Assembly: GCF_004360155.1 (NCBI RefSeq)
Contig: NZ_SAIS01000034.1
Span: 1-42,881 of the forward strand
From: Paraglaciecola marina
GTDB taxonomy: Bacteria > Pseudomonadota > Gammaproteobacteria > Enterobacterales > Alteromonadaceae
Direction: 5' to 3'
Length of the DNA stretch: 42,881 nucleotides
Shown: in pieces, positions 13,132-29,492 of the stretch
Layout: each line of letters starts with the position of its first letter
Position numbering within the stretch: position 1 is the stretch's first letter
Made by a program: the position numbers and the translations under genes
The notes under the pieces: model-generated
What the model saw: the letters and a program-made list of their open reading frames with translations, nothing else
What the model was told of the DNA's origin: nothing
The model's database searches: none

Positions 13132-13677
13132 ATGTCAGTAAATAATGAAAATTTGGTTTGGATTGATATGGAAATGACCGGACTTGAGCCTGAAACTGAT
13201 GTTGTACTAGAAATAGCTACAATAGTGACAGACAAAAATCTAAACATCCTAGCAGAAGGTCCAGTGTTGGCGATCCATCAGCCAGACAGCATATTAAATG
13301 GTATGGATGAGTGGTGTACCAATACCCATGGAAAGTCTGGATTAACAACTAGGTGTCAGCAGAGCACTATTACTGTAGAACAGGCTGTTGCACAAACGAT
13401 TCAATTTTTAGAGCTTTACGTTCCTAAAGGTGTATCCCCTTTGTGTGGAAATACTATTGGGCAAGACCGCCGTTTTTTAGTCAAGTACATGGCAGAGTTG
13501 GAAGCATACTTTCATTACAGAAGTGTAGATGTGAGCACAATTAAAGAATTGGTTCGCCGTTGGAAACCCGAGTTGTTAGATGGTTTTCACAAAAAAGGAG
13601 TGCATTTAGCACTAGACGATATTCGTGAGTCTATCGCCGAAATGGCTTATTACCGCCAACATGTTTTTAATATTTAA
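13132..13677 (+). CDS. orn: Oligoribonuclease
   Basis: This cytosolic 3'-to-5' exoribonuclease of the DEDDh family degrades RNA fragments of two to five nucleotides, including pGpG left from cyclic di-GMP. The 181 residues begin with ExoI motif [20 protein letters not shown] is ExoII. The C-terminal [18 protein letters not shown] carries the histidine and last aspartate. The ATG has a strong CAGGAG site six bases upstream. It diverges from rsgA, and a tRNA-Gly gene follows. A GGDEF-EAL protein at 27534-29492 would produce its pGpG substrate precursor. Confidence 0.97.
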
Positions 13678-14381: not shown

Positions 14382-16862
14382 ATGACCAACAAATCACACA
14401 GAAAAGCATTTAGCTATTCAGCTATTGCGTTAGCAGTATCTGTTAACTTTTTACCAAATGTCGCTATTGCCCAAGACCAAGAAGCTCAAATCGAAACCAT
14501 TCAAATTACAGCCACCAGAAGAACAGGGACTGTTCAGGATGCCCCTTTAAATATCACAGCTTTAACTTCTGATACCTTAGCAGAACAGAATATTTCTGAT
14601 TTGGATGATGTTGCTCGCTGGGTACCAGGTTTGACAGTAACTGACCAGGGTGGTCGTAGTGATTCTCCTATTATTGTTCGTGGATTGAATACCAATTCAT
14701 CTGGTCCATCATCAGATGGTGGAACTGTGGCAACTTATGTGGGTGAAATCCCTCTATTCATTAATTTACGCCTAAATGATATTGAGAGAGTAGAAGTGTT
14801 AATTGGTCCACAAGGGACATTGTATGGTGCCGGAACATTAGGTGGGGCTATTCGTTACATCCCAAAACAAGTGGAGCTGGACGTAACTGAAGGGCAAGTA
14901 TATGGAGATTTATTCTCACAATCAGAAAGCGCCAGTTTAGGTGGTGAAGCTGGTTTTATTTTTAATACGCCCTTAATTGAAGATGAGCTAGGTGTCAGAG
15001 TTTCTGTTAATAGATACCATAATCCAGGCTTTATTGATTATAACTATGTTGTAAAAGACGGTGGTGTATCCCTGCCTGATCCAGATTGGACTGATCAATC
15101 GTCGATTGATGAAAACCTTAAGCAGGTTGAAGACGCAAACGGCGAAGATACTTTGTCGGCTAAGGTTGCATTACGTTGGCAGCCAAATGAAAAATTTGAT
15201 GCTACTTTATCTTATTTTTATCAAAACCAAGAAGTAGAAGGGCGCTCGATTACCCATTACAATGCCTTGTCAGATGATAATCCTCTTGCTGATCTAGTTG
15301 GAAAATATGAGTCAGCGTACCGCTATGTAGAGCCAAGAGAAAAAGAAGATTCTCTATTAAGTTTAGAAATGAAAGTCGATTTAGGCTTCGCTGAGCTCGT
15401 TTCTGCAACGGGTAAGTCTGAATACAATGCTGTGGGCCAGCGAGATCAAACTGACTTACTTATCCGCTTAGATTATAGCTATGAAGAGTTTCCTGCGTTT
15501 TCTGCTTATACTCGCGAAGTTGATGAAGTCGAAATCTTAACTCAAGAACTTCGATTGGTTTCAACTAATGATTCTGCACTCTCTTGGATTGTTGGTGGGT
15601 TCTATAATAACATTGAAAGTTTTGGTGAAAGCAGTGAGTTTACTCCTGGCTTTGACGAATACGCCATTAATGTATGGGGAGTTGACGGTAATTTAAGACC
15701 AGACTCGTTAGAGTATTACTCAGTTGGTTATACTGAAGTGACAGAAAAAGCGTTATTTGGTGAGTTAAGTTATCAGATAAACGATAAGTGGGACGTAACC
15801 GTTGGACTTAGAAAGTACGAATACGACGTGACGTCATCATCAGCTGTTGACTTACCTTTATTCTACACAGTGTTTGATGGCCGAGATTCTGACTCTTTAG
15901 AGATCGACTTATCTACTGAAAATGCCAGTGACTCTGGTAATTTATTTAAATTCAATACCAGTTATCAATTTACTGATGACTTAATGGGCTACTTTACTGT
16001 TAGTGAAGGGTTCAGAATTGGTGGTTCAAATGGTGTGGCTGCATGCCCTGATAATATAGACGAAATAGCAACACAAATAGTCTGCGCCTTACCAAACGAA
16101 GTATTGTACACACCAGACACTACCACTAACTATGAGTTAGGTTTCAAGAGTACTTGGTTGAAAAATAAGTTTCACTTTAACGGAGCTCTATTCAACGTAG
16201 ACTGGGATAACGCTCAAGTATCTGGTGCTACGGTAAATGGTCAACAAACCATTACGTCTAATGCTGCAACTGCAAATTCTAAAGGTGTTGAAATTTCTAC
16301 TAGGGCAATTTTAAGCGATAGTTTGTCAGCCTATGCCACATACTCTTATACCCAAGCGGAGCTAACAGACGACGCGCTATTCTTGTTTGATATTTTTGTG
16401 GATGATGAAGGTGAAGCCATTTTACCTATTCAAGATTATTACGACGGTAAAGATGGTGATCGTCTACCAGGCTCTCCAAAACAACAATTTTCATTTGGTC
16501 TAAAATACACCCAAGATATTTTCAATGATAAATTGTTAGATGTTACCTATGGTTTAACCGCTCAAAGTAACGTGTTAACTAAAGTGGGGTCACGGGCTGA
16601 TGGTGAAGCATTACCAGGTTACGCATTGAGTAACTTGAGCGCTTCTATCTCAGATGATGATTGGGCCGTTACTCTATATATTGACAACATGTTCAATAAA
16701 TATGCGTATTCGTCTACTCGGAGTAATGTTTCTAGTATTGGCTTAGGGGCTTATCAAGAGGAAAACTATGTAAATGGAACTGACCTTTTGCGTAGTTATG
16801 GCCATTATGTGATAAATCCACGTAAAGTTGGTATCAAGTTTACCTATAACTTCGACATGTAA
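14382..16862 (+). CDS. TonB-dependent outer-membrane receptor
   Basis: This 826-residue outer-membrane protein imports a ligand using TonB/ExbBD energy. A signal peptide ends near AIAQ (about residue 30). A TonB-box-like stretch (IETIQITATRR) follows. The plug domain (about 50-165) includes PIIVRGLN and the IERVEVLIGPQGTLYGAGTLGGAIRYI signature. The rest is a 22-strand barrel ending GIKFTYNFDM rather than in phenylalanine. The plug style is of the Fe-siderophore/vitamin/carbohydrate general class; the ligand is unknown. A terminator and a TPR-sulfotransferase follow. No Fur-type box was seen upstream. Confidence 0.93.
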   Translation: MTNKSHRKAFSYSAIALAVSVNFLPNVAIAQDQEAQIETIQITATRRTGTVQDAPLNITALTSDTLAEQNISDLDDVARWVPGLTVTDQGGRSDSPIIVRGLNTNSSGPSSDGGTVATYVGEIPLFINLRLNDIERVEVLIGPQGTLYGAGTLGGAIRYIPKQVELDVTEGQVYGDLFSQSESASLGGEAGFIFNTPLIEDELGVRVSVNRYHNPGFIDYNYVVKDGGVSLPDPDWTDQSSIDENLKQVEDANGEDTLSAKVALRWQPNEKFDATLSYFYQNQEVEGRSITHYNALSDDNPLADLVGKYESAYRYVEPREKEDSLLSLEMKVDLGFAELVSATGKSEYNAVGQRDQTDLLIRLDYSYEEFPAFSAYTREVDEVEILTQELRLVSTNDSALSWIVGGFYNNIESFGESSEFTPGFDEYAINVWGVDGNLRPDSLEYYSVGYTEVTEKALFGELSYQINDKWDVTVGLRKYEYDVTSSSAVDLPLFYTVFDGRDSDSLEIDLSTENASDSGNLFKFNTSYQFTDDLMGYFTVSEGFRIGGSNGVAACPDNIDEIATQIVCALPNEVLYTPDTTTNYELGFKSTWLKNKFHFNGALFNVDWDNAQVSGATVNGQQTITSNAATANSKGVEISTRAILSDSLSAYATYSYTQAELTDDALFLFDIFVDDEGEAILPIQDYYDGKDGDRLPGSPKQQFSFGLKYTQDIFNDKLLDVTYGLTAQSNVLTKVGSRADGEALPGYALSNLSASISDDDWAVTLYIDNMFNKYAYSSTRSNVSSIGLGAYQEENYVNGTDLLRSYGHYVINPRKVGIKFTYNFDM

Positions 16863-16920: not shown

Positions 16921-16943
16921 GTTAACCATCGAAGCTTTTGCTC

Positions 16944-18518
16944 ATGAATACAAACACCATTCAAACATTACACCGCAATGCTCAGATTGCTCTGAATCAG
17001 CGAGACTATGTTAAGGCCCACAGTTATTGCGTAAAGATTATCGAGTTCCAGCCTAATCATGCCGATGCCTATTTTCTGTTAGGTATGATCCATTGCGAAA
17101 TTGGGCAAATCAAAAAAGCAATAAAGCTAATTCAAAAAGCGCTATCGTTCCAAGTGGTGCCAGAATACCTAGCACACCTAGCTAAGTGTTATTCGCTAAT
17201 GGGCGATATGGCATCAGTTTTAAATGTTGTGCAAGACATACCTTTAGATATTATTTCTAAACCTCTTACCTTAGACACTCTAGGAGTAGCACTTAGTCGT
17301 GTGGGTGATCACACAAAGGCACTAGTGTATTTTGAAAAAGCTTTACAGCTTGAAAAGCATAATCCAGGTTTTTATTACAATTTTGGGGTGTCCTCTAAGT
17401 TTGCTGGGTTATTTGAACAAGCTAAACGAGCCTTTAATCAAGCCATTGCATTAGAACCTAAATATTACCAATCACACTTTGCCTTATCTGATTTAGGTGG
17501 AATAACCCAATCCTCAAATCATATTGAAAGGCTGCAAGCTTTACTGGATGACAATATCCACCCCGACAATTTACTGCACCTTGGGCACGCCTTAGCCAAA
17601 GAGTACGAAGCATTAGGGGAGTATGGCCAAAGTATTGAGATGCTAAACCGGGTTAAAAATAATAAAGCTAGTACTATGAATTATCAGTTCTCTGATGATA
17701 AAGAGCTGTTTAGCTATTTAAAAAATGTTAATCAATCAAGCTCAAATACAGAGCAGGGTTGTGACTCTACACAACCTATTTTTATCGTAGGAATGCCGCG
17801 CTCAGGGACAACATTAGTGGAGCGAATATTGAGTAATCATAGCCAAGTTAACTCGTGTGGTGAATTACAAGATTTTGGCGTTGCGGTAAAAGAGCTTACT
17901 AACACACAGTCGAGAAAAGTGCTTGATGTGGAAACGTTAATGGCAGCGCAACAACTTGATTTTAAAGCTCTCGGTGAACGATACATAGAAACCACAAGTG
18001 CGGTGTCGGGTAATACAGCTCACTTTATTGATAAGCTTCCATTTAATTTTTTCTATATAGACCTCATTTCTAAAGCTTTACCCAATGCCAAGATTATTTG
18101 TTTGTTGCGGGATCCTATGGATACCTGTATCGGTAACTATAGGCAATTATTTTCAATCAATAGCCCTTATTACAGTTACGCATATAGCTTGAAAACTATT
18201 GGGCAGTTTTATTCTGAGTTTTTTGAGCTAGTGCATCAAAGAGTCCAACAAAATGTACCTAATCTTATGATGCTTAACTATCAAGAGCTGGTGGCTGAAC
18301 CAAGAGCTAAGGTAACTGAGTTACTAGGTTTTTGTGGGCTTGAGTGGCAAGAGCAATGTTTGCATGCTGAAACAAATACTGCGCCCGTTTCTACCGCTAG
18401 CAAGGTTCAAGTGCGAGAGCCTATAAATGCTAAGTCAATCGGCCGTTGGAAAAAATTCCGCCCTTATACTGATGAGTTAGAGGCGTTACTTAGAAATAAC
18501 AAAGTGCTAACAAGGTAA
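16944..18518 (+). CDS. TPR-containing sulfotransferase family protein
   Basis: The N-terminal half (about residues 5-250) is tetratricopeptide repeats, for example ADAYFLLGMIHCEIGQIKKA and HNPGFYYNFG. The C-terminal half is a P-loop sulfotransferase domain. The 5'-phosphosulfate loop VGMPRSGTTLVE lies near residue 284, and the 3'-phosphate segment CLLRDPMDTCIGNYRQ further on. It would transfer sulfate from PAPS to an unknown acceptor, perhaps a protein bound by the repeats. No signal peptide is seen, so it is probably cytosolic. The ATG at 16944 is chosen over a TTG two codons upstream; neither has a strong ribosome binding site. It converges with the Lrp-type regulator. Confidence 0.88.
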   Translation: MNTNTIQTLHRNAQIALNQRDYVKAHSYCVKIIEFQPNHADAYFLLGMIHCEIGQIKKAIKLIQKALSFQVVPEYLAHLAKCYSLMGDMASVLNVVQDIPLDIISKPLTLDTLGVALSRVGDHTKALVYFEKALQLEKHNPGFYYNFGVSSKFAGLFEQAKRAFNQAIALEPKYYQSHFALSDLGGITQSSNHIERLQALLDDNIHPDNLLHLGHALAKEYEALGEYGQSIEMLNRVKNNKASTMNYQFSDDKELFSYLKNVNQSSSNTEQGCDSTQPIFIVGMPRSGTTLVERILSNHSQVNSCGELQDFGVAVKELTNTQSRKVLDVETLMAAQQLDFKALGERYIETTSAVSGNTAHFIDKLPFNFFYIDLISKALPNAKIICLLRDPMDTCIGNYRQLFSINSPYYSYAYSLKTIGQFYSEFFELVHQRVQQNVPNLMMLNYQELVAEPRAKVTELLGFCGLEWQEQCLHAETNTAPVSTASKVQVREPINAKSIGRWKKFRPYTDELEALLRNNKVLTR

Positions 18519-18546: not shown

Positions 18547-19047
18547 CTATTCAATCCACTTCAGTTTTTCCAAAGGATAACCTAAACACCATTTAGCCCG
18601 TTCAAGAATAACTCGTGTTTTAATGCGTTCTATTCCCAGTTTTGGATTAGCACTAAGTTCATTACAAGCTTGATTCAAGGCTTTGATGTCTGGAAAGCAA
18701 GTGAAAGAAATATAGTCAATATCATCACTTACCCGAACACAATCCATAAATTCAGGGAGCTGGTTAATGGCTTCTTCAAATGCAGCTCTACCATTTACAG
18801 TATTGTTGTCTAACTTGAACTCAACGTAAGCCAAAACATGTTCGCATAGTCTGTCTAAATCCATTTCTGTTTGAAAATTGACGAAATATCCTGCTTCTTT
18901 TAAAGCTTTAGTTCTTTGAAAGCATGCGCTGGGTGATAAGGCCACTGCATCAGAAAGCTCTTGATTTGATAGGTCAGCGTTTTTATGCAGGGTTGCAAGT
19001 ATCTTTTTATTGATTGCGTCTAATTTTACTGTTTTATGTTTTTTCAT
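18547..19047 (-). CDS. Lrp/AsnC family transcriptional regulator
   Basis: The 166 residues carry an N-terminal helix-turn-helix (about 10-55, NADLSNQELSDAVALSPSAC) with the typical LSNQELS and LSPSAC segments. A C-terminal RAM effector-binding domain (about 70-150) follows. Lrp/AsnC proteins sense amino acids or related metabolites, and many control a neighbouring divergent operon. This one diverges from the NCS1-hydantoinase-DUF917 operon over 179 bases, so that operon is its likely target. A perfect 15-base dyad lies 19 bases upstream of its start, which fits self-repression. Confidence 0.92.
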   Translation of the reverse strand: MKKHKTVKLDAINKKILATLHKNADLSNQELSDAVALSPSACFQRTKALKEAGYFVNFQTEMDLDRLCEHVLAYVEFKLDNNTVNGRAAFEEAINQLPEFMDCVRVSDDIDYISFTCFPDIKALNQACNELSANPKLGIERIKTRVILERAKWCLGYPLEKLKWIE

Positions 19048-19065
19048 ACTGGCAACTGATTAATG

Positions 19066-19080
19066 CAAAATATCATTTTG
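19066..19080. promoter_or_regulatory. Candidate Lrp/AsnC operator
   Basis: CAAAAT-ATC-ATTTTG is a perfect 15-base dyad in the divergent intergenic region, 19 bases from the regulator's start codon. A-tract dyads of this size are typical of Lrp/AsnC operators. A direct repeat TTCAATAG at 19126-19133 and 19142-19149 (16-base spacing) closer to the operon may be a further contact site. The binding protein is inferred from position only. Confidence 0.45.
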
Positions 19081-19226
19081 ATACAAGTAGACCAATAAAT
19101 ACATTCTTTAAATAAAACGGTAATCTTCAATAGATTATTTTTTCAATAGTCCTTTAATATAAGCAAGTCCCGTTTCTTTAAATTGCTGCAAAACCACATA
19201 CTAAAAATTATAACAAAGGTGATATT

Positions 19227-20516
19227 TTGGATAATCAAAGCGAATACTCAAGTGTGGCTGTAACAGCTGAACAAATTGTGTCTTGGCCCAGGGTCGCAGC
19301 GGTTTCTGTAATGATTGCATTTTCATTACCGACTTTCATAACTGGGATTGAGATTTATCAAGGGTTAACTGTTCCTGATACGGTGTGGGCTTTGATTATC
19401 GGCTCAGTTTTGCTAACTATCATTGGTGGCACAATGGGCGCTATTGGCGCTAAAACCCGCTTAAGCTCTTATCTGTTGGTGAGAATAGCATTTGGAGATA
19501 GGGGAGCTGGTGTTGTTAATTTAGCTTTTGCTTTGTCACTTATAGGCTGGTTTGGCGTCAATATAGACCTTTTTTCTGGTGCAGTGAGCCGCTTGGCATT
19601 AGACGTTTTTGAGTTACATATTCCTGACTGGCCAATAGAAATGGCGGCTGGTATTTGCATGATAATTACCACTATTTTTGGATTTAAAGCAATCAATATA
19701 CTGGCTTCGATTATGGTTCCTGTGCTGGTAGTGGTAACGGCTATGATGTTTTGGGCTGCTTACAATCAATTAAGTTTAGAGCAGTTTTGGTATTTTGAAA
19801 AAAGCGCCACGCTAACATTAAGTGATGCCGTCAGTGCCATAGTAGGAGCGATTATTGTTGGCGCGATTATTCTTCCTGATATCACTCGCTTCACTAAGCA
19901 CTGGACCGGTGGAGTCTATACCGCTTTTTGGGCTTATATGGTGGTTGAACTGATCGTGTTATTTGTAGCTGCATTTGCCGCTGCTGCTATTGGGCAATCT
20001 GAAATTTTAAGTTTAATGTTAGCTTTAGGTTTGGGGTTAGCGGCTTTTGTGATTGTGATTGCAGGCAGTTGGTTACTTAATTCCTTAAATCTTTACAGCA
20101 CTATGCTGAGTGTTGAAGCTACCTGGCCAAAAATTACGGGTAAGCTGTATACCTGTTTATTCGGATTGGCTGGGATCATCGCGGCCTTCTTTAATATTCT
20201 AGATGTGTTTATTGCTTTCTTGTCTTTTTTAGCCGCGATATTTGTGCCCGTATCGGGTGTTATTATGGTTGATTTCTTATTTATAAGGCGAGAGTTTTAT
20301 AATCTTGATTCTCTTAAGAATAATGTAAAGTTTTCACCTGCTGCTTTTATTGCCTGGTTACTCGGTGCAGCCCTTGCAGTGTTTAGTGATGCGGCATTCA
20401 TGCCATCTTTTACCAGCATCACCGTGTTAGATGCTGTTTTAATTTCTGGCATTGTTTATGCGCTGCTTTGTCATGTTTGGTCTACCCCCGTTAAAAATGT
20501 CGAAGGAGAAATCTAA
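19227..20516 (+). CDS. NCS1 family permease (cytosine/hydantoin permease-like)
   Basis: This 429-residue inner-membrane protein has about twelve hydrophobic helices and the CodB-like NCS1 style. Examples are the SLPTFITGIEIYQGL segment in helix 1, the GAKTRLSSYLLVRIAFGDRG loop, and DITRFTKHW. NCS1 proteins import nucleobases, hydantoins or allantoin with Na+ or H+. The start is a TTG with a good AAAGGTG site six bases upstream; no ATG is near. The stop overlaps the next start by one base (TAATG), so it is translationally linked to the hydantoinase-like gene. That linkage suggests it imports that protein's substrate. Confidence 0.9.
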   Translation: MDNQSEYSSVAVTAEQIVSWPRVAAVSVMIAFSLPTFITGIEIYQGLTVPDTVWALIIGSVLLTIIGGTMGAIGAKTRLSSYLLVRIAFGDRGAGVVNLAFALSLIGWFGVNIDLFSGAVSRLALDVFELHIPDWPIEMAAGICMIITTIFGFKAINILASIMVPVLVVVTAMMFWAAYNQLSLEQFWYFEKSATLTLSDAVSAIVGAIIVGAIILPDITRFTKHWTGGVYTAFWAYMVVELIVLFVAAFAAAAIGQSEILSLMLALGLGLAAFVIVIAGSWLLNSLNLYSTMLSVEATWPKITGKLYTCLFGLAGIIAAFFNILDVFIAFLSFLAAIFVPVSGVIMVDFLFIRREFYNLDSLKNNVKFSPAAFIAWLLGAALAVFSDAAFMPSFTSITVLDAVLISGIVYALLCHVWSTPVKNVEGEI

Positions 20517-22096
20517 TGCATATAGGTATTGATGTTGGCGGCACACACACAGATGCTGTATTGATTAGTGGTGATGATATTTTAGCAAGTACCAAAGCAC
20601 TTACCTCTGCAGATATTGTTACTGGGGTCGTCAATGCATTGACCACTATTCTCACTGATGGTGTGGTATCTGGCACTCAAATAGATGCAATTATGATTGG
20701 CACCACACAGTTTACTAATGCTGTGGTAGAACGCAGGGAGTTGTCTGAAGTTGCGGCCATTCGTATTGGTTTACCTAGCGGTGAAGGGTTACCTCCTATG
20801 GTGGATTGGCCTGCTGATATTAAAGCTGCTGTAGGTAATCATGCATATATGATTAAAGGGGGCTACCTCTACGACAATTGGCCATTAGCCCAGTTTGATG
20901 AGGCGGAAATAAATGACGTATTGCATGATATAAAAAGAAAAGGCCTAACCAATATATCTATAGCGTCGGCTTTTTCTCCTATGAATCCAGAGCCAGAGTT
21001 ATTTCTTGCTGAAAAAGTAAAAGCGGTGATCCCAGAAGCTAAGATTACGTTGTCTCATAATATTGGGCGTTTAGGAATATTAGAAAGAGAGAATGCTTCC
21101 ATTTTAAATACCGCCCTTTTGGACTTTGCAGACAGAGTGGTTGACGCGTTTGGTATGGCTATTAATAAACTTGGTATTCAGTGCCCAGTATTTATTAGCC
21201 AGAATGATGGCACCTTAATGAATGCCAGTTACGTCAAAAAATTTCCTGCCTTAACCTTTGCATCTGGACCCACTAACTCATTAAGAGGCGCGTTCAAACT
21301 ATCCGGAGTAGCCAATGCCATAGTGGTAGATATTGGCGGCACCACATCAGATATTGGCGTATTGCAAAATGGCTTTCCTAGAGAGTCTAGCGCTATTGTT
21401 GATATAGGCGGAATACGCACTAATTTCAGAATGCCAGATATCAATGCAATAGGCTTGGGCGGGGGCAGTATGGTTACACCTGACGGCCTGCAAATTGGCC
21501 CGCAGTCCGTAGGCCATAGGTTAGTTGATGACGGGCTAGTGTTTGGTGGTGATATTTTAACGGCTACTGACCTTATAGTTGCCGCTGGTGGCGCTGAAAT
21601 TGGGGATAAAACTAAGTTACAGCAGTTATCGAAAGAGGTAGTTGCAAGTGGCATAAAGACGATTAACCAAATGCTTGATCGTGGCATTGATATGATGAAG
21701 CTCAATAGTGAACCTGTACCTGTAATTTTAGTTGGCGGCGGTGCTGTGTTAGTGAGTGGAGATTTGAAATCGGCATCACAGGTGTTACGTCCTAAACATG
21801 CTGAAGTTGCGAATGCCATAGGGGCATCTATCGCCAAGATCAGTGGTGAGAGTGAAAAAATGGTGTCCTATCAGAATATTCCCCGTGACAAAGCAATAGA
21901 AGAAGTGAAGCAAGAAGCCTTTAAACGTGCCATAGCCGCCGGCGCGTCTGAGGTATCATTAGAAATGGTTGATATCGAAGAAACCGCAATTCCCTATATG
22001 GATGGTGCCTGCACCAAATTAAGAATAAAAGTTATGGGTGATGTGAAAGCATTGGCTTCAACGACTCATAATAAGATAGAGGAAGCATCATCATGA
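20516..22096 (+). CDS. Hydantoinase/oxoprolinase family protein
   Basis: The 526 residues form an actin-like ATPase fold of the HyuA/oxoprolinase type. The N-terminal phosphate loop GIDVGGTHTDAVLI is at about residues 3-16. The second loop IVVDIGGTTSDIGVL lies near 270-285. The GLGGGSMV segment and a late VILVGGGAVL follow. Family members hydrolyse cyclic amides such as hydantoins or 5-oxoproline with ATP, often with a HyuB partner, which is absent here. It overlaps the permease by one base and the DUF917 gene by four (ATGA), so the three are one operon. The substrate is unknown. Confidence 0.9.
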   Translation: MHIGIDVGGTHTDAVLISGDDILASTKALTSADIVTGVVNALTTILTDGVVSGTQIDAIMIGTTQFTNAVVERRELSEVAAIRIGLPSGEGLPPMVDWPADIKAAVGNHAYMIKGGYLYDNWPLAQFDEAEINDVLHDIKRKGLTNISIASAFSPMNPEPELFLAEKVKAVIPEAKITLSHNIGRLGILERENASILNTALLDFADRVVDAFGMAINKLGIQCPVFISQNDGTLMNASYVKKFPALTFASGPTNSLRGAFKLSGVANAIVVDIGGTTSDIGVLQNGFPRESSAIVDIGGIRTNFRMPDINAIGLGGGSMVTPDGLQIGPQSVGHRLVDDGLVFGGDILTATDLIVAAGGAEIGDKTKLQQLSKEVVASGIKTINQMLDRGIDMMKLNSEPVPVILVGGGAVLVSGDLKSASQVLRPKHAEVANAIGASIAKISGESEKMVSYQNIPRDKAIEEVKQEAFKRAIAAGASEVSLEMVDIEETAIPYMDGACTKLRIKVMGDVKALASTTHNKIEEASS

Positions 22097-23178
22097 ATCT
22101 AGACGAATCACATTTAGAGGATTTAGCACTTGGTGCTGTCTTTTTGGCTACAGGTGGAGGTGGTGATCCTTATGTATCTAAATTACTCACGGCTTTGGCA
22201 TTCAAAAAATACGGCCCTGTGAACTTGATAGAAGTGAGTGAATTATCAGATGACGCCCATGTGGTGACTATTGGTGGCGTAGGCGCCCCCACTGTAGGGT
22301 TAGAGTTACTGCCATCACAAAATGAAAGTTTTGAAGCTTTGTTGGCTTACGAAAAGCACACTGGCAGAAAAGTTGATGCCCTTGTTTCTTTTGAAATAGG
22401 CGGTGGAAATTCATTAATACCTATAATGGCTGCTTTAGCTAAAGGTATTCCTGTGGTAGATGGTGACGGAATGGGGCGTGCCTTACCTGAGGCTCAAATG
22501 ATGACATATGCAATATGTGGTGCTTGCCCAACACCGGCAGTCGCTTTAGATTATGAAGGTAACGCTACGTTATTCTCTACCAAAGACACCCATACTTTCG
22601 AACGCCATATTAGAGGCTTAACTCAAGCCTCAGGTGGCATGATGTTATCTATTGACCACCCCATGACAGGTGCCTTTCTGAAAAAAGCCATTATACCTGG
22701 CACCGTGAGCTTCTCGGTTAAATTGGGTGCTTTGTTGCGTGAAAACAGAGGCAGTGCAGAACAATTATTATCGCCATTACAGGCTTTGTTTAAAGACTCT
22801 GTATACGGTGAGTGCCGTCTTTTATATACGGGGAAAGTCACCGATAAGCATAACTCAGTAGTAGGCGGCTTTGATGTTGGTGAAGTGACTATTGCTTCAT
22901 TTGAAGAACAAACACCACCTATGAGTATCTGTATTAAAAATGAATACTTAATTGCTAAATTAGATGGCAAGGTTGTGGCTAGCGTCCCAGATTTAATAGT
23001 AATAGTTGAATATGAAACCTCCAGCCCTATAAATGCCGAAAGATTAAGGTATGGGCAGAGGTTGGCTGTTTTTGCTATCGGTTGCCCTGAGTTTTATAGA
23101 ACACCCGAAGCGCTTAAAGCTGTGTCGCCAAGGTGTTTTGGTTTTGACCTTGATTATGTTCCTTTGGAAGCTATTTAA
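22093..23178 (+). CDS. DUF917 family protein (possible thiohydantoin-acting enzyme)
   Basis: The 361 residues carry the family hallmarks LATGGGGDPY near residue 19 and VVDGDGMGRALPEAQM near 118. Conserved SFEIGGGNSL lies between them. From memory, this Pfam family has been renamed after an S-methyl thiohydantoin desulfurase; I am not certain that activity applies here. Members commonly sit beside hydantoinase/oxoprolinase genes, as here, with a 4-base ATGA overlap. It is presumably cytosolic and acts on the same pathway. It is the last clear member of the operon. Confidence 0.87.
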   Translation: MNLDESHLEDLALGAVFLATGGGGDPYVSKLLTALAFKKYGPVNLIEVSELSDDAHVVTIGGVGAPTVGLELLPSQNESFEALLAYEKHTGRKVDALVSFEIGGGNSLIPIMAALAKGIPVVDGDGMGRALPEAQMMTYAICGACPTPAVALDYEGNATLFSTKDTHTFERHIRGLTQASGGMMLSIDHPMTGAFLKKAIIPGTVSFSVKLGALLRENRGSAEQLLSPLQALFKDSVYGECRLLYTGKVTDKHNSVVGGFDVGEVTIASFEEQTPPMSICIKNEYLIAKLDGKVVASVPDLIVIVEYETSSPINAERLRYGQRLAVFAIGCPEFYRTPEALKAVSPRCFGFDLDYVPLEAI

Positions 23179-27533: not shown

Positions 27534-29492
27534 TTAGGTTTTTATTGTGGTTTTTTGCCAATCAGATAAATCTTTATTTTTCATAGGTTTAGCAAAGTAG
27601 TAACCTTGCAAATAATCTACACCCATTGCCGATAGGGCCATAGCTTGCTCTTTAGTTTCCACGCCTTCGGCTATGGTTTGACACCCTAGCTCCCTAGCAA
27701 TGAATAAGGTGGCTCTTATAATTGCTTCACCTTTACCTTCAATATTATCTACGAAGGTTTTATCAATCTTTACAAAATTAACGGGTAAAGCTTGTAATTG
27801 CGATAATGACGAATAACCTGTGCCAAAATCATCGATTGATACGGCTATATTGCGAGCTCGAATTTGTTCAAGTTGTTGCAAAATGAATGCTTGATTTTCG
27901 ACAAAGGTTGATTCGGTTACTTCTAGATGTAATCGTTCTGGCGGCAGTCCACTGCTTTGTAAGCATTTATCTAGAAGGCGTATAAATCCTTTATCCATAA
28001 GTTGGATAACAGATACATTCACTGATACCGCTACTTTTGGTGCGTCATGCCAATGGACCGCATCCATACAGGCTCGATTTAATACCCATGCGCCAATTTC
28101 TTTTATTAACCCAGACTTTTCTGCTAAGGGAATAAATACATCGGGGCCTATAAATTTACCATCAAAGTCCCACCTTAATAACGCTTCGTTAGCCCAACAA
28201 TTATAGCCTTTTGCTTTTTGTATAGGTTGGTAACATAAATATAATTGTTTGTTTTCGATAGCATGTTGTAGTCCTTCCAAAATGGCCTGTGAGGCTAAGA
28301 TCCTTTCTTTTACATCATTTGAAAATAATTGGGGCTTATTGTTACTAGATTGCTTTTGCTCACACATAGTGAGATCCGCTAGTTGAATTAACTCGGTTGC
28401 CGATTGGCTATCATTTGGGGCCATAGCAATGCCAATCGATGCCGTTAGGTGTATTTCATTTCCATGTACATAAATAGGTTGAGAAATACTATGGCTCATA
28501 GCTTGTGCGATTTCCAAAGCGGTATTAGAGTCACTATAGGGCAGGGCAATTAGAAACTCATCACCACTCCATCTTCCTGCTCTATGGTTTTCTGAAAATG
28601 CCGAGATTCTCTGGGTTACCTGCACTAAAACGCTATCACCTACTTTATGGCCCATAGTGTCATTAATATTTTTGAAACTAATTAAATCGATAAAAAGTAA
28701 TGCCAATGGCCTGTCTTTTTCTACTGCTTGTTTAACTAGTGTTTTTAGATTTGCAGTAAATGCTTTTCGGTTATCCAATTTTGTCAATGAATCTAGGTTA
28801 CTAAGGTTATATATTTCCTCTGTTCGCGCCTTAATCTGTTCTTCTAGGTTTTGGTTTACTTGATTGAGGGCTTCCGTAGTTGTAGTTAATTCGTGATTAA
28901 TAGTCGCAAATCGGTTTTTCTCTTCTATCGCTTTGGTAACCAATTTTTGGTTAACATTTTTGTTGTATATAGCCTGTTCAGTAAATCGCGAGTTCTTTAA
29001 ACTATAAATTATCATCAGTACGCAGTAAGAGAGGCTTAATATACCTAGGTGAACTCTTTCACTTTGATCAGCAAATATTCCCATAATAGCTGTGGGTGCT
29101 AGTATGATAATTGAATAGCTAATAGCTATAAAACTACTCGCAGAGAACATAGACGCAGAAGCTCCAGCTAATGAAGCCAGTATGACAATAAAGCAGGTAA
29201 ACTCGGAGACCTGCATAGCATCAAAAAATAAGAATGCGTACATAGACCACATAATTGAAGTTAAAATAGTACCTACTGCGTAACGCTGTATACCTAAAGG
29301 CCCGGAGTCAGCACTTACATTTTTTTTTGATTTCCATAAAGCTATATCTATTATGCGGCCCACTAAGATAAGGTTAATTGTACCCAACCAATAAGCCTTT
29401 TCGTCGAGAAGAGCACCATCTGCAAACAGTAATACAAGCATAACGGTGGCGACTATGTTGGTTAAAACACCAAGTACGCCATTACTGTACAA
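27534..29492 (-). CDS. Membrane GGDEF-EAL protein (cyclic di-GMP turnover)
   Basis: The N-terminal 160 residues form about five to six membrane helices, followed by a coiled coil (about 175-225). The GGDEF domain (about 230-385) has RWSGDEF; glycine 1 is serine and no clear RxxD inhibitory site precedes it. The EAL domain (about 400-645) is intact: NEALLRW, DDFGTGYSS, the KIDKTF lysine, EGVE and QGYYFAKP. It is probably an active phosphodiesterase with uncertain cyclase activity. The listed start is a TTG without a ribosome binding site. The frame stays open upstream to an ATT at 29546 preceded by AAGGG, which may be the true start. Confidence 0.9.
   Translation of the reverse strand: MYSNGVLGVLTNIVATVMLVLLFADGALLDEKAYWLGTINLILVGRIIDIALWKSKKNVSADSGPLGIQRYAVGTILTSIMWSMYAFLFFDAMQVSEFTCFIVILASLAGASASMFSASSFIAISYSIIILAPTAIMGIFADQSERVHLGILSLSYCVLMIIYSLKNSRFTEQAIYNKNVNQKLVTKAIEEKNRFATINHELTTTTEALNQVNQNLEEQIKARTEEIYNLSNLDSLTKLDNRKAFTANLKTLVKQAVEKDRPLALLFIDLISFKNINDTMGHKVGDSVLVQVTQRISAFSENHRAGRWSGDEFLIALPYSDSNTALEIAQAMSHSISQPIYVHGNEIHLTASIGIAMAPNDSQSATELIQLADLTMCEQKQSSNNKPQLFSNDVKERILASQAILEGLQHAIENKQLYLCYQPIQKAKGYNCWANEALLRWDFDGKFIGPDVFIPLAEKSGLIKEIGAWVLNRACMDAVHWHDAPKVAVSVNVSVIQLMDKGFIRLLDKCLQSSGLPPERLHLEVTESTFVENQAFILQQLEQIRARNIAVSIDDFGTGYSSLSQLQALPVNFVKIDKTFVDNIEGKGEAIIRATLFIARELGCQTIAEGVETKEQAMALSAMGVDYLQGYYFAKPMKNKDLSDWQKTTIKT

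Follow-up and report, generated by a model that had tools for sequence, protein, structure and literature searches.

In caprolactamase (CapAB), 5-oxoprolinase and N-methylhydantoinase, a HyuA component is proposed to activate a carbonyl with ATP, and a second component, HyuB, serves hydrolysis. DUF917 proteins have been named as desulfurases of S-methyl thiohydantoin and thiohydantoin, and they also occur beside HyuA. Specifically, passages of two papers list a cytosine permease, a DUF917 protein and a HyuA under consecutive accessions in L. rhamnosus (PMC7513527) and, in C. difficile, under locus tags that follow one another (PMC12915319), the adjacency being read from accession and tag order. 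Gene clusters resembling those for cyclodipeptide oxidases are described, in passages of PMC11055893, as containing DUF917 with racemases and peptide transporters. A 2013 paper that also cites earlier cyclo(Gly-Gly) hydrolases described the diketopiperazine-opening enzymes as unknown (PMC3852281). In the excerpts considered from the open-licence PMC literature (PMC11055893, PMC12915319, PMC8453981, PMC6061476, PMC3852281, PMC9503626 and PMC7513527), no reaction is assigned to HyuA–DUF917.

Here we describe an operon of Paraglaciecola marina, located within a 42,881-nucleotide stretch of DNA (the window, meaning the whole stretch analyzed), and propose, with a probability of about one half, that it provides locally regulated uptake and catabolism of a small amino-acid-derived cyclic amide through a HyuA–DUF917 pair.

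Results

Gene Order of the Locus

ORF calls place four genes at 18547–23178, with lrp on the reverse strand followed by the genes for an NCS1 permease, a short HyuA and a DUF917 protein (Table 1). The TAA of the permease gene and the ATG of the HyuA gene have one base in common (20516), and the HyuA/DUF917 junction is an ATGA overlap of four bases (22093–22096). The gene order, the one- and four-base overlaps and the divergent Lrp/AsnC gene had been described in the first-pass annotation, and ORF calls and Pfam confirmed them. Its remark that there is no HyuB partner also held for the stretch, which lacks a HyuB gene; two HyuB domains are encoded elsewhere in the genome.

Table 1. Features of the locus and its upstream neighbors
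Feature	Coordinates	Strand	Basis
TonB-dependent receptor, nonobligate neighbor	14382..16862	+	Plug + beta-barrel
TPR-sulfotransferase, paired with receptor, nonobligate	16938..18518	+	Sulfotransfer_3 + TPR
Lrp/AsnC-type local regulator	18547..19047	-	Pfam HTH_24, HTH_AsnC-type, AsnC_trans_reg; divergent from operon
15-bp palindrome, proposed Lrp operator	19066..19080	.	CAAAAT-ATC-ATTTTG, exact match to CAAAATNNNATTTTG
NCS1 permease, CodB-like, TTG start	19227..20516	+	Pfam Transp_cyt_pur
Short HyuA, 526 aa, predicted ATP-using activating component, ASKHA-fold	20516..22096	+	Hydant_A_N + Hydantoinase_A
DUF917 (S-Me-THD-like), 361 aa, predicted hydrolytic HyuA partner	22093..23178	+	S-Me-THD_N + S-Me-THD_C (former DUF917)

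Recurrence of the Module

We refer to HyuA-bearing modules as type A and to HyuA-less DUF917 modules as type B. The permease–HyuA–DUF917 order recurs in the family of the window, in Aliiglaciecola, Hyphomonadaceae and Caulobacterales, and in genomes of another class, and the arrangement is therefore more than chance. A Planococcus plasmid also carries genes for a cytosine permease, DUF917 and HyuA side by side. At least 8,000 clustered proteins matched the window HyuA at E ≤ 1e-20, a count of HyuA matches alone from a search that scored the 8,000 candidates with the most words in common. Among the fetched loci, the window HyuA is 63 to 66% identical to those of L175–L178, from another class, and 58 to 64% identical to those of its own family. 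The protein search gave closer matches in Paraglaciecola (83% and 70%), and, given these, we dropped horizontal transfer as a claim. On these sequence comparisons the distribution of the module is patchy, and patchiness is all that we claim. Three loci in which the short HyuA was not called (L010, L153 and L186) were left out of the collection; L066 overlaps L086, and L003/L091 and L004/L093 look like the same loci drawn from two collections, both members of each pair being counted in the totals of 82, 86 and 32 used below.

DUF917 Is the Regular Partner of a Short HyuA

DUF917 regularly partners the short HyuA: it was present in 55 of the 58 neighborhoods chosen through HyuA, and a short HyuA was found in 12/12 family genomes with this DUF917 subfamily vs. 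0/28 with other DUF917 proteins, the 28 including one genome (G577) without a seen DUF917 identity. HyuA and DUF917 are also naturally fused in proteins from fungi, snails and metagenomes, and the fusion matches from assemblies assigned to fungi and snails show 29 to 34% identity over 99 to 100% of the paired query. Of 13 genomes that encode the HyuA–DUF917 pair, six had no HyuB (PF02538) scoring over the cut-off, and ORF calls and Pfam revealed no HyuB, the partner with the Asp-His-Asp-His metal site, in the window operon. The first-pass annotation had left HyuA to act either alone or with DUF917; the 55 loci, the fusions and the HyuB-free genomes fit action with DUF917 and without HyuB. We interpret the pair as an ATP-dependent cyclic-amide hydrolase with DUF917 in the place of HyuB.

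By sequence, the window HyuA belongs to a distinct short clade. All 86 aligned HyuAs keep D6, G8, G9, T10, T12, D13, K27, D272, G274, G275, T276 and D279, and all carry the phosphate motifs DxGGTxTD (D6 to D13) and DxGGTxxD (D272 to D279). The PGP of the usual adenosine motif, GxxPGP, is absent from 86/86 sequences, and because this motif is lost, ATP use by HyuA is a prediction. Its PDB relatives include an N-methylhydantoinase whose title names dihydrouridine (9h03).

The window DUF917 protein scored 173.1 and 180.8 bits against PF06032 and PF20906, both above the gathering score of 27, vs. 109.7 bits against S-methyl thiohydantoin desulfurase (NF058532, cut-off 450) and 94.8 bits against thiohydantoin desulfurase (NF058529, cut-off 440). 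The scanned DUF917 proteins of HyuA-less type B modules (L068, L069, L100 and L103) also fell below both desulfurase cut-offs, at 75 to 107 bits. In the alignment of HyuA-linked DUF917s no His or Cys is conserved at ≥93%, and these proteins thus have no HyuB-like zinc site. In type B modules a similar permease and Lrp accompany DUF917 in the absence of HyuA, and some of these rings may thus be handled without HyuA.

The Permease Is Closest to CodB by Sequence

The permease matched PF02133 with 79.5 bits (gathering score 23.5) and the cytosine permease CodB model NF008241 with 177.9 bits, below the cut-off of 326. Cytosine permease 7qoa (E 5e-29) was the only solved relative listed in a sequence search at E ≤ 0.1, and the hydantoin carrier Mhp1 was not among the PDB matches of this sequence comparison at that threshold. 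The known substrates of NCS1 carriers are nucleobases and hydantoins; the carriers are not known to take up cyclic dipeptides.

A Palindrome Upstream of Lrp

Pfam found both an HTH and an AsnC ligand domain in the Lrp protein, which scored 78 bits against the Lrp equivalog model, below the cut-off of 233. Homologs with 51 to 78% identity are encoded divergently from the module at type A loci and at most type B loci. The gap between lrp and the permease gene contains a palindrome. Of 32 gaps upstream of Lrp, window included, 18 have it with zero or one mismatch, a post hoc count, as the motif was derived from the gaps that were scored; L103, with a gap over 400 bases, was left out. These matches comprise 15/15 type B gaps vs. 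only 3/17 type A gaps, and pair shuffles gave about 0.1 matches per set of 32. The 4.64-Mb genome contains three exact sites, and the reversed-pattern control none. We considered a wider Lrp regulon and rejected it, as both remaining exact sites fall inside ORFs, a result for exact sites only. We propose the palindrome as a candidate operator to which Lrp would bind.

The Receptor/Sulfotransferase Pair Is Inherited Separately

A TonB receptor gene and a TPR-sulfotransferase gene, neither of them noted in the first-pass annotation of the operon, end just before lrp. In 7/7 fetched loci a sulfotransferase accompanies this receptor group near a DUF917 module, and we at first favored the pair as an obligate module part. 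This was dropped because three genomes (G371, G592 and G629) have the pair without the module. In G371 and G592 it lies between an ORF like that at 13132 of the window, possibly encoding an oligoribonuclease, and DUF4442, without the four-gene module; in G629 it adjoins DUF4442 with the sulfotransferase gene turned round, on a contig that stops short of the other flank. DUF917 is missing from all three genomes. In G650, G546 and G562 the receptor/sulfotransferase site is empty. Among 118 family genomes, 34 encode a receptor of this clade (E ≤ 1e-180), and DUF917 carriage among these (4/34; G000, G450, G457 and G471) is no higher than the family rate (41/295). The pair is thus inherited separately from the module.

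Neighbors of Relatives

The partners that recur beside relatives are racemases, peptidases, including dipeptidases, and peptide transporters. The partner scan covered 77 of 107 partners. Fourteen of the 30 left out came from three apparent duplicates (L137, L182 and L188, of L136, L181 and L185, respectively); the remainder were chosen by eye, most of them short ORFs or additional subunits of transporters. PF01177 (Asp/Glu/hydantoin) racemases made up 16 of the 77 and were the commonest among the best 25 of 86 families listed. Partner counts are uneven, as 39 of the 58 HyuA-chosen loci belong to one order. Peptidase-like genes occurred at 11/82 loci (L142 and L204 weak) vs. 3/35 control loci (M14 only), after removal from an initial 12 of L202, whose query and match are an IS630 transposase. 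We set peptidase enrichment aside as a test because its queries were taken from the tested loci and the L202 query was a transposase. No peptidase lies beside the module in the window, and none was recognized in type A loci of the family except one in L086.

The N-carbamoylase-type model TIGR01879 matched a protein of the window's own genome with 418 bits (cut-off 204). Matches over this cut-off occurred in 10/13 module genomes (absent from G562, G639 and G601), 4/4 same-genus type B genomes and 6/8 same-genus genomes without DUF917, and show no association with the module. None of 16 neighbor proteins scanned with NCBIfam (14 of the 77 partners and two others) matched TIGR01879 at E ≤ 1e-10.

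Discussion

In the proposed pathway, the NCS1 permease would carry the ring into the cytoplasm, where the short HyuA, with its ASKHA fold, would spend ATP on activating, probably phosphorylating, a ring carbonyl. DUF917 would dock on HyuA, add water and complete ring opening, taking the job that HyuB has in 5-oxoprolinase, N-methylhydantoinase and caprolactamase. Lrp regulators respond to amino acid effectors, and the divergent Lrp may sense the amino acid product and act through the palindrome at 19066–19080. The sequences show the gene content, the regular HyuA–DUF917 partnership, the fusions, the conserved ATP-site motifs, the genomes without HyuB and the recurrent palindrome; from these we infer the chemistry, the contact of HyuA with DUF917 in P. 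marina, the effector of Lrp and Lrp–palindrome binding. The dipeptidases, peptide transporters and racemases near relatives weakly favor a ring derived from amino acids, possibly a cyclic dipeptide. For this subfamily we would, least certainly of all, name a cyclic dipeptide (2,5-diketopiperazine) first and hydantoins second.

The first-pass annotation had the operon import and open a hydantoin-like ring. Import and cyclic-amide opening agree with our results; a hydantoin is possible and finds no specific support. That the operon imports a 5-substituted hydantoin and opens it to an N-carbamoyl amino acid, cleaved by a carbamoylase encoded elsewhere in the genome, is an unlikely reading, although it fits the NCS1 and HyuA families and the TIGR01879 protein of the genome. 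The genes co-occurring with the trio, a check proposed in that annotation, speak on both sides, as the racemases, the commonest partners among the families listed, would fit hydantoins, but TIGR01879 is missing from 3/13 module genomes and all 16 neighbors and is not associated with the module. Moreover, the permease is closer to CodB by sequence, and Mhp1 was not listed at E ≤ 0.1.

We also doubt that the same ATP-dependent opener acts on a nucleobase-like or N-heteroaromatic ring (a dihydropyrimidine, imide or hydroxylated heterocycle) without a peptide link. The CodB-like permease and 9h03 would suit it, as would L185 and L188, which lie beside a molybdenum-hydroxylase set (xanthine-dehydrogenase-like subunits) and a luciferase-like monooxygenase, so that the HyuA–DUF917 family serves other rings too. 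However, L185 and L188 are less closely related to the window locus, the window genes have no recognized hydroxylase subunit beside them, the neighbors of close relatives being only partly annotated, and the peptidase and peptide-transport neighbors of relatives point elsewhere. It is very improbable that HyuA–DUF917 uses ATP for group transfer or carboxylation, in the manner of the carboxylases of acetone and acetophenone, rather than for hydrolysis, since the named DUF917 relatives are desulfurases, DUF917-type desulfurases are hydrolytic, and caprolactamase has the same fold. Least credible is the thiohydantoin or S-methyl-thiohydantoin desulfurization of ergothioneine-type catabolism, the thiohydantoin reading of the first-pass annotation: membership of DUF917 in the S-Me-THD Pfam families favors it, but scores of 110 vs. 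450 and 95 vs. 440 bits, far under both desulfurase cut-offs, led us to reject it, and the short HyuA of 12/12 family genomes should, judging by the enzyme's name, not be needed for that reaction.

Returning to a HyuA–DUF917 cyclic-amide hydrolase, a tentative extension, which we would not yet expect to hold, is that the pair is a widespread ATP-driven 2,5-diketopiperazine hydrolase, a missing enzyme of diketopiperazine breakdown in marine bacteria, rhizobia and probably lactobacilli and clostridia, and fused in fungi and snails. If so, the task of HyuB would have been solved a second time by an unrelated protein, DUF917. The pair offers a concrete candidate for diketopiperazine opening, and fungi and snails also have it in fused form. 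If the pair is an ATP-dependent opener without HyuB, many "hydantoinase/oxoprolinase family" and DUF917 annotations would gain a testable mechanism.

Comparison with Known Systems

The window permease resembles CodB (7qoa), its closest solved NCS1 relative by sequence, but stays under the NCBIfam cytosine permease cut-off and has other genomic partners. With the desulfurases of NF058532 and NF058529 the window DUF917 shares the same two Pfam domains; unlike them, it scores far under the cut-offs, and HyuA accompanies its subfamily. As in the clusters described in passages of PMC11055893, loci of relatives repeatedly feature DUF917, peptidases, PF01177 racemases and oligopeptide transporters; the one hint of the oxidase comes from the surroundings of L136, where a gene is annotated as belonging to the nitroreductase family. 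The window HyuA differs from CapA (696 aa) in being about 170 aa shorter, with the match of the fusion model to CapA extending to residue 614, and the window pair differs from CapAB and HyuA–HyuB in lacking GxxPGP, in having DUF917 for HyuB and in conserving no His that could bind zinc. Like CapAB, 5-oxoprolinase and N-methylhydantoinase, it has a HyuA ASKHA domain with two phosphate-binding motifs and a Lys, and a second component that would serve hydrolysis. Fungal and gastropod HyuA–DUF917 fusions have both domains of the window pair, joined there in a single chain.

The module and its neighborhood

The four genes and both gene overlaps described in the first-pass annotation were borne out, each assignment being backed by Pfam, as was its claim that HyuB is missing from the window. 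The module is real and widely conserved. DUF4442, DUF413, and ilvI-like genes lie downstream, and the closest fetched Alteromonadaceae locus (L097) has the identical four-gene set and identical downstream genes. As a gene neighborhood the module is ordinary; the mechanism of its core enzymes deserves testing, and no reaction assignment for the HyuA–DUF917 pair was found in the open-licence PMC passages covered.

Coordinates of the module and other features of the window
Feature	Position	Strand	Remark
TonB receptor	14382-16862	+
TPR-sulfotransferase	16938-18518	+
Lrp/AsnC regulator	18547-19047	-
Palindrome	19066-19080		Lrp–permease gap
NCS1 permease	19227-20516	+	TTG start codon
Short HyuA	20516-22096	+
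DUF917	22093-23178	+
GGDEF-EAL protein	27534-29492	-	No relation to the module

The nearest PDB relative of the NCS1 permease by sequence is the cytosine permease 7qoa. Occurrence of the module is patchy: DUF917 was found in 8 of 16 genus genomes, its own included (the HyuA-linked kind in 4 of those 8), and in 41 of 295 genomes across the family, i.e., 40 besides the window's. The receptor–sulfotransferase pair, upstream of the module, sits in a variable site between an ORF at 13132 and DUF4442. Such a pair also lies beside DUF4442 in L231, L232, and L233, and the site is empty in L234 to L236.

A short HyuA with DUF917 as its regular partner

Among 398 genomes of the phylum, HyuA matches split into two groups. 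The first comprises short proteins matched over their full length at E values of 8e-124 or lower, from 11 loci of 10 genomes, not counting the window; the second reaches 6e-40 at best, its matches lying in open frames of at least 669 aa and ending between residues 321 and 364. By these matches, the window HyuA is placed in a distinct short clade. In an alignment of 86 short HyuAs (85 from loci, plus the window's), D6, G8, G9, T10, T12, D13, K27, D272, G274, G275, T276, and D279 are invariant, and the GxxPGP adenosine motif is missing from all 86. Counterparts of conserved residues in the caprolactamase HyuA-type subunit CapA, D11 and D295, are essential by mutation, according to a passage of PMC8453981. 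Two genomes of another class, G1033 and G1039, hold six and five short-HyuA copies, respectively, several near a LuxR-type regulator, a TonB receptor, NCS1, and a racemase.

DUF917 is the regular partner of short HyuA. The gene caller placed it in 55 of 58 HyuA-chosen neighborhoods, adjoining HyuA or a few genes off; of the other three, L143 has DUF917 annotated in its record, L180 stops shortly past HyuA, and L200 has none in the fetched stretch. Within the family, short HyuA occurs in 12/12 genomes with a window-like DUF917 (35 to 69% identity) and in 0/28 with another DUF917 (25 to 30% identity in the 27 fetched). Both domains are joined in 26 of 31 long proteins from a joined-query search, the carriers including Penicillium, Fusarium, Coccidioides, Aureobasidium, and the snails Bulinus and Candidula; P0142 contains a permease domain as well, and in P0121 and P0151 the permease is fused to HyuA. 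The fungal and snail fusions (P0124, P0127, P0129, P0130, P0132 to P0136, P0138, P0140, and P0144) span 968 to 1248 aa. HyuA and DUF917 distances correlate with r = 0.92 over 74 loci (reached by 0/999 permutations), a value that linked inheritance by itself could produce.

HyuB (PF02538) is missing from 6 of 13 pair-bearing genomes (G562, G399, G441, G472, G553, and G601), and two HyuB domains occur elsewhere in the genome of the window, one within a 1216-aa open frame. Judged by gene content, pair-bearing genomes would not need HyuB.

Two module types and a putative Lrp site

Family modules with HyuA (type A) are laid out as Lrp divergent from NCS1–HyuA–DUF917, and those of type B have Lrp and DUF917, no HyuA, and usually the NCS1 permease; some HyuA-less DUF917 genes lie outside type B modules (e.g., L079 to L085). 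Common to both types are Lrp (51 to 78% identity to the window's) and the permease family (55 to 62% identical to the window's in HyuA-less L069, L073, L075, L078, L103, and L105). A TonB receptor of another group, absent from the window, occurs in many loci of both types. Some type B modules lie near an arginase-family gene (L069, L074, L098, and L101) or an M14 carboxypeptidase (L098, L101, and L103). Type B looks as if it were an ATP-free variant standing in for the HyuA pair.

With at most one mismatch, CAAAATNNNATTTTG was found in the Lrp-upstream gap of 15/15 type B and 3/17 type A modules, the window included. Exact copies occur in 14 of 32 gaps versus 0.01 per shuffled set, the motif having been derived from these same gaps. 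Because the palindrome in the Lrp–permease gap is the sole intergenic one of three exact sites in the window's genome, the regulator looks local and the palindrome is probably its own site. L068, L069, L071, L100, L103, and other type B modules have Lrp, the palindrome, and the permease family in common with the window.

The ring substrate

Operon partners of relatives were scanned for families in 77 of 107 cases. Asp/Glu/hydantoin racemase was commonest (16), followed by ABC ATPase (5), oligopeptide-binding SBP_bac_5 (4), M19 dipeptidase (3), oligo_HPY (3), M24 peptidase (2), and single M17 and asparaginase-2 members. Annotated plasmid loci are similar, with racemases, ABC transporters (those of L144 and L145 being of the peptide/nickel type), a dipeptidase and an isoaspartyl peptidase (L139), and an Xaa-Pro peptidase (L143). 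An Xaa-Pro dipeptidase scoring above its cut-off lies immediately downstream in L005, a locus with a DUF917 that shares 67% identity with that of the window. The M20 protein of L212 scores above the cut-off of the general model TIGR01891; its resemblance is to carboxypeptidase CpsA (338 bits, short of the cut-off of 500) rather than to a carbamoylase.

Against these partners must be weighed that peptidase genes occur in only a minority of loci, none adjoining the module in the window, and that a single order contributes 39 of the 58 HyuA-chosen loci. A further counterpoint is the HyuA–DUF917 loci L185 and L188, where molybdenum-hydroxylase (xanthine-dehydrogenase-like) subunits are encoded together with a TonB receptor and a luciferase-like monooxygenase; these genes may form a pathway acting on an N-heteroaromatic ring. 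On balance, the substrate is likely an amino-acid-derived cyclic amide, and our best single guess for the ring is a cyclic dipeptide.

According to excerpts of PMC3852281, the enzymes with which bacteria cleave diketopiperazines had yet to be identified at that time, and two recombinant D-hydantoinases cleaved 0/9 diketopiperazines. A passage of PMC6061476 suggests some 5-oxoprolinase-annotated genes as possible cyclic dipeptide hydrolases. Near cyclodipeptide-oxidase-like genes, DUF917, racemases, and peptide transporters are enriched, according to part of PMC11055893; the same text prefers hydantoin-like substrates for DUF917, which counts against a cyclic dipeptide as first choice.
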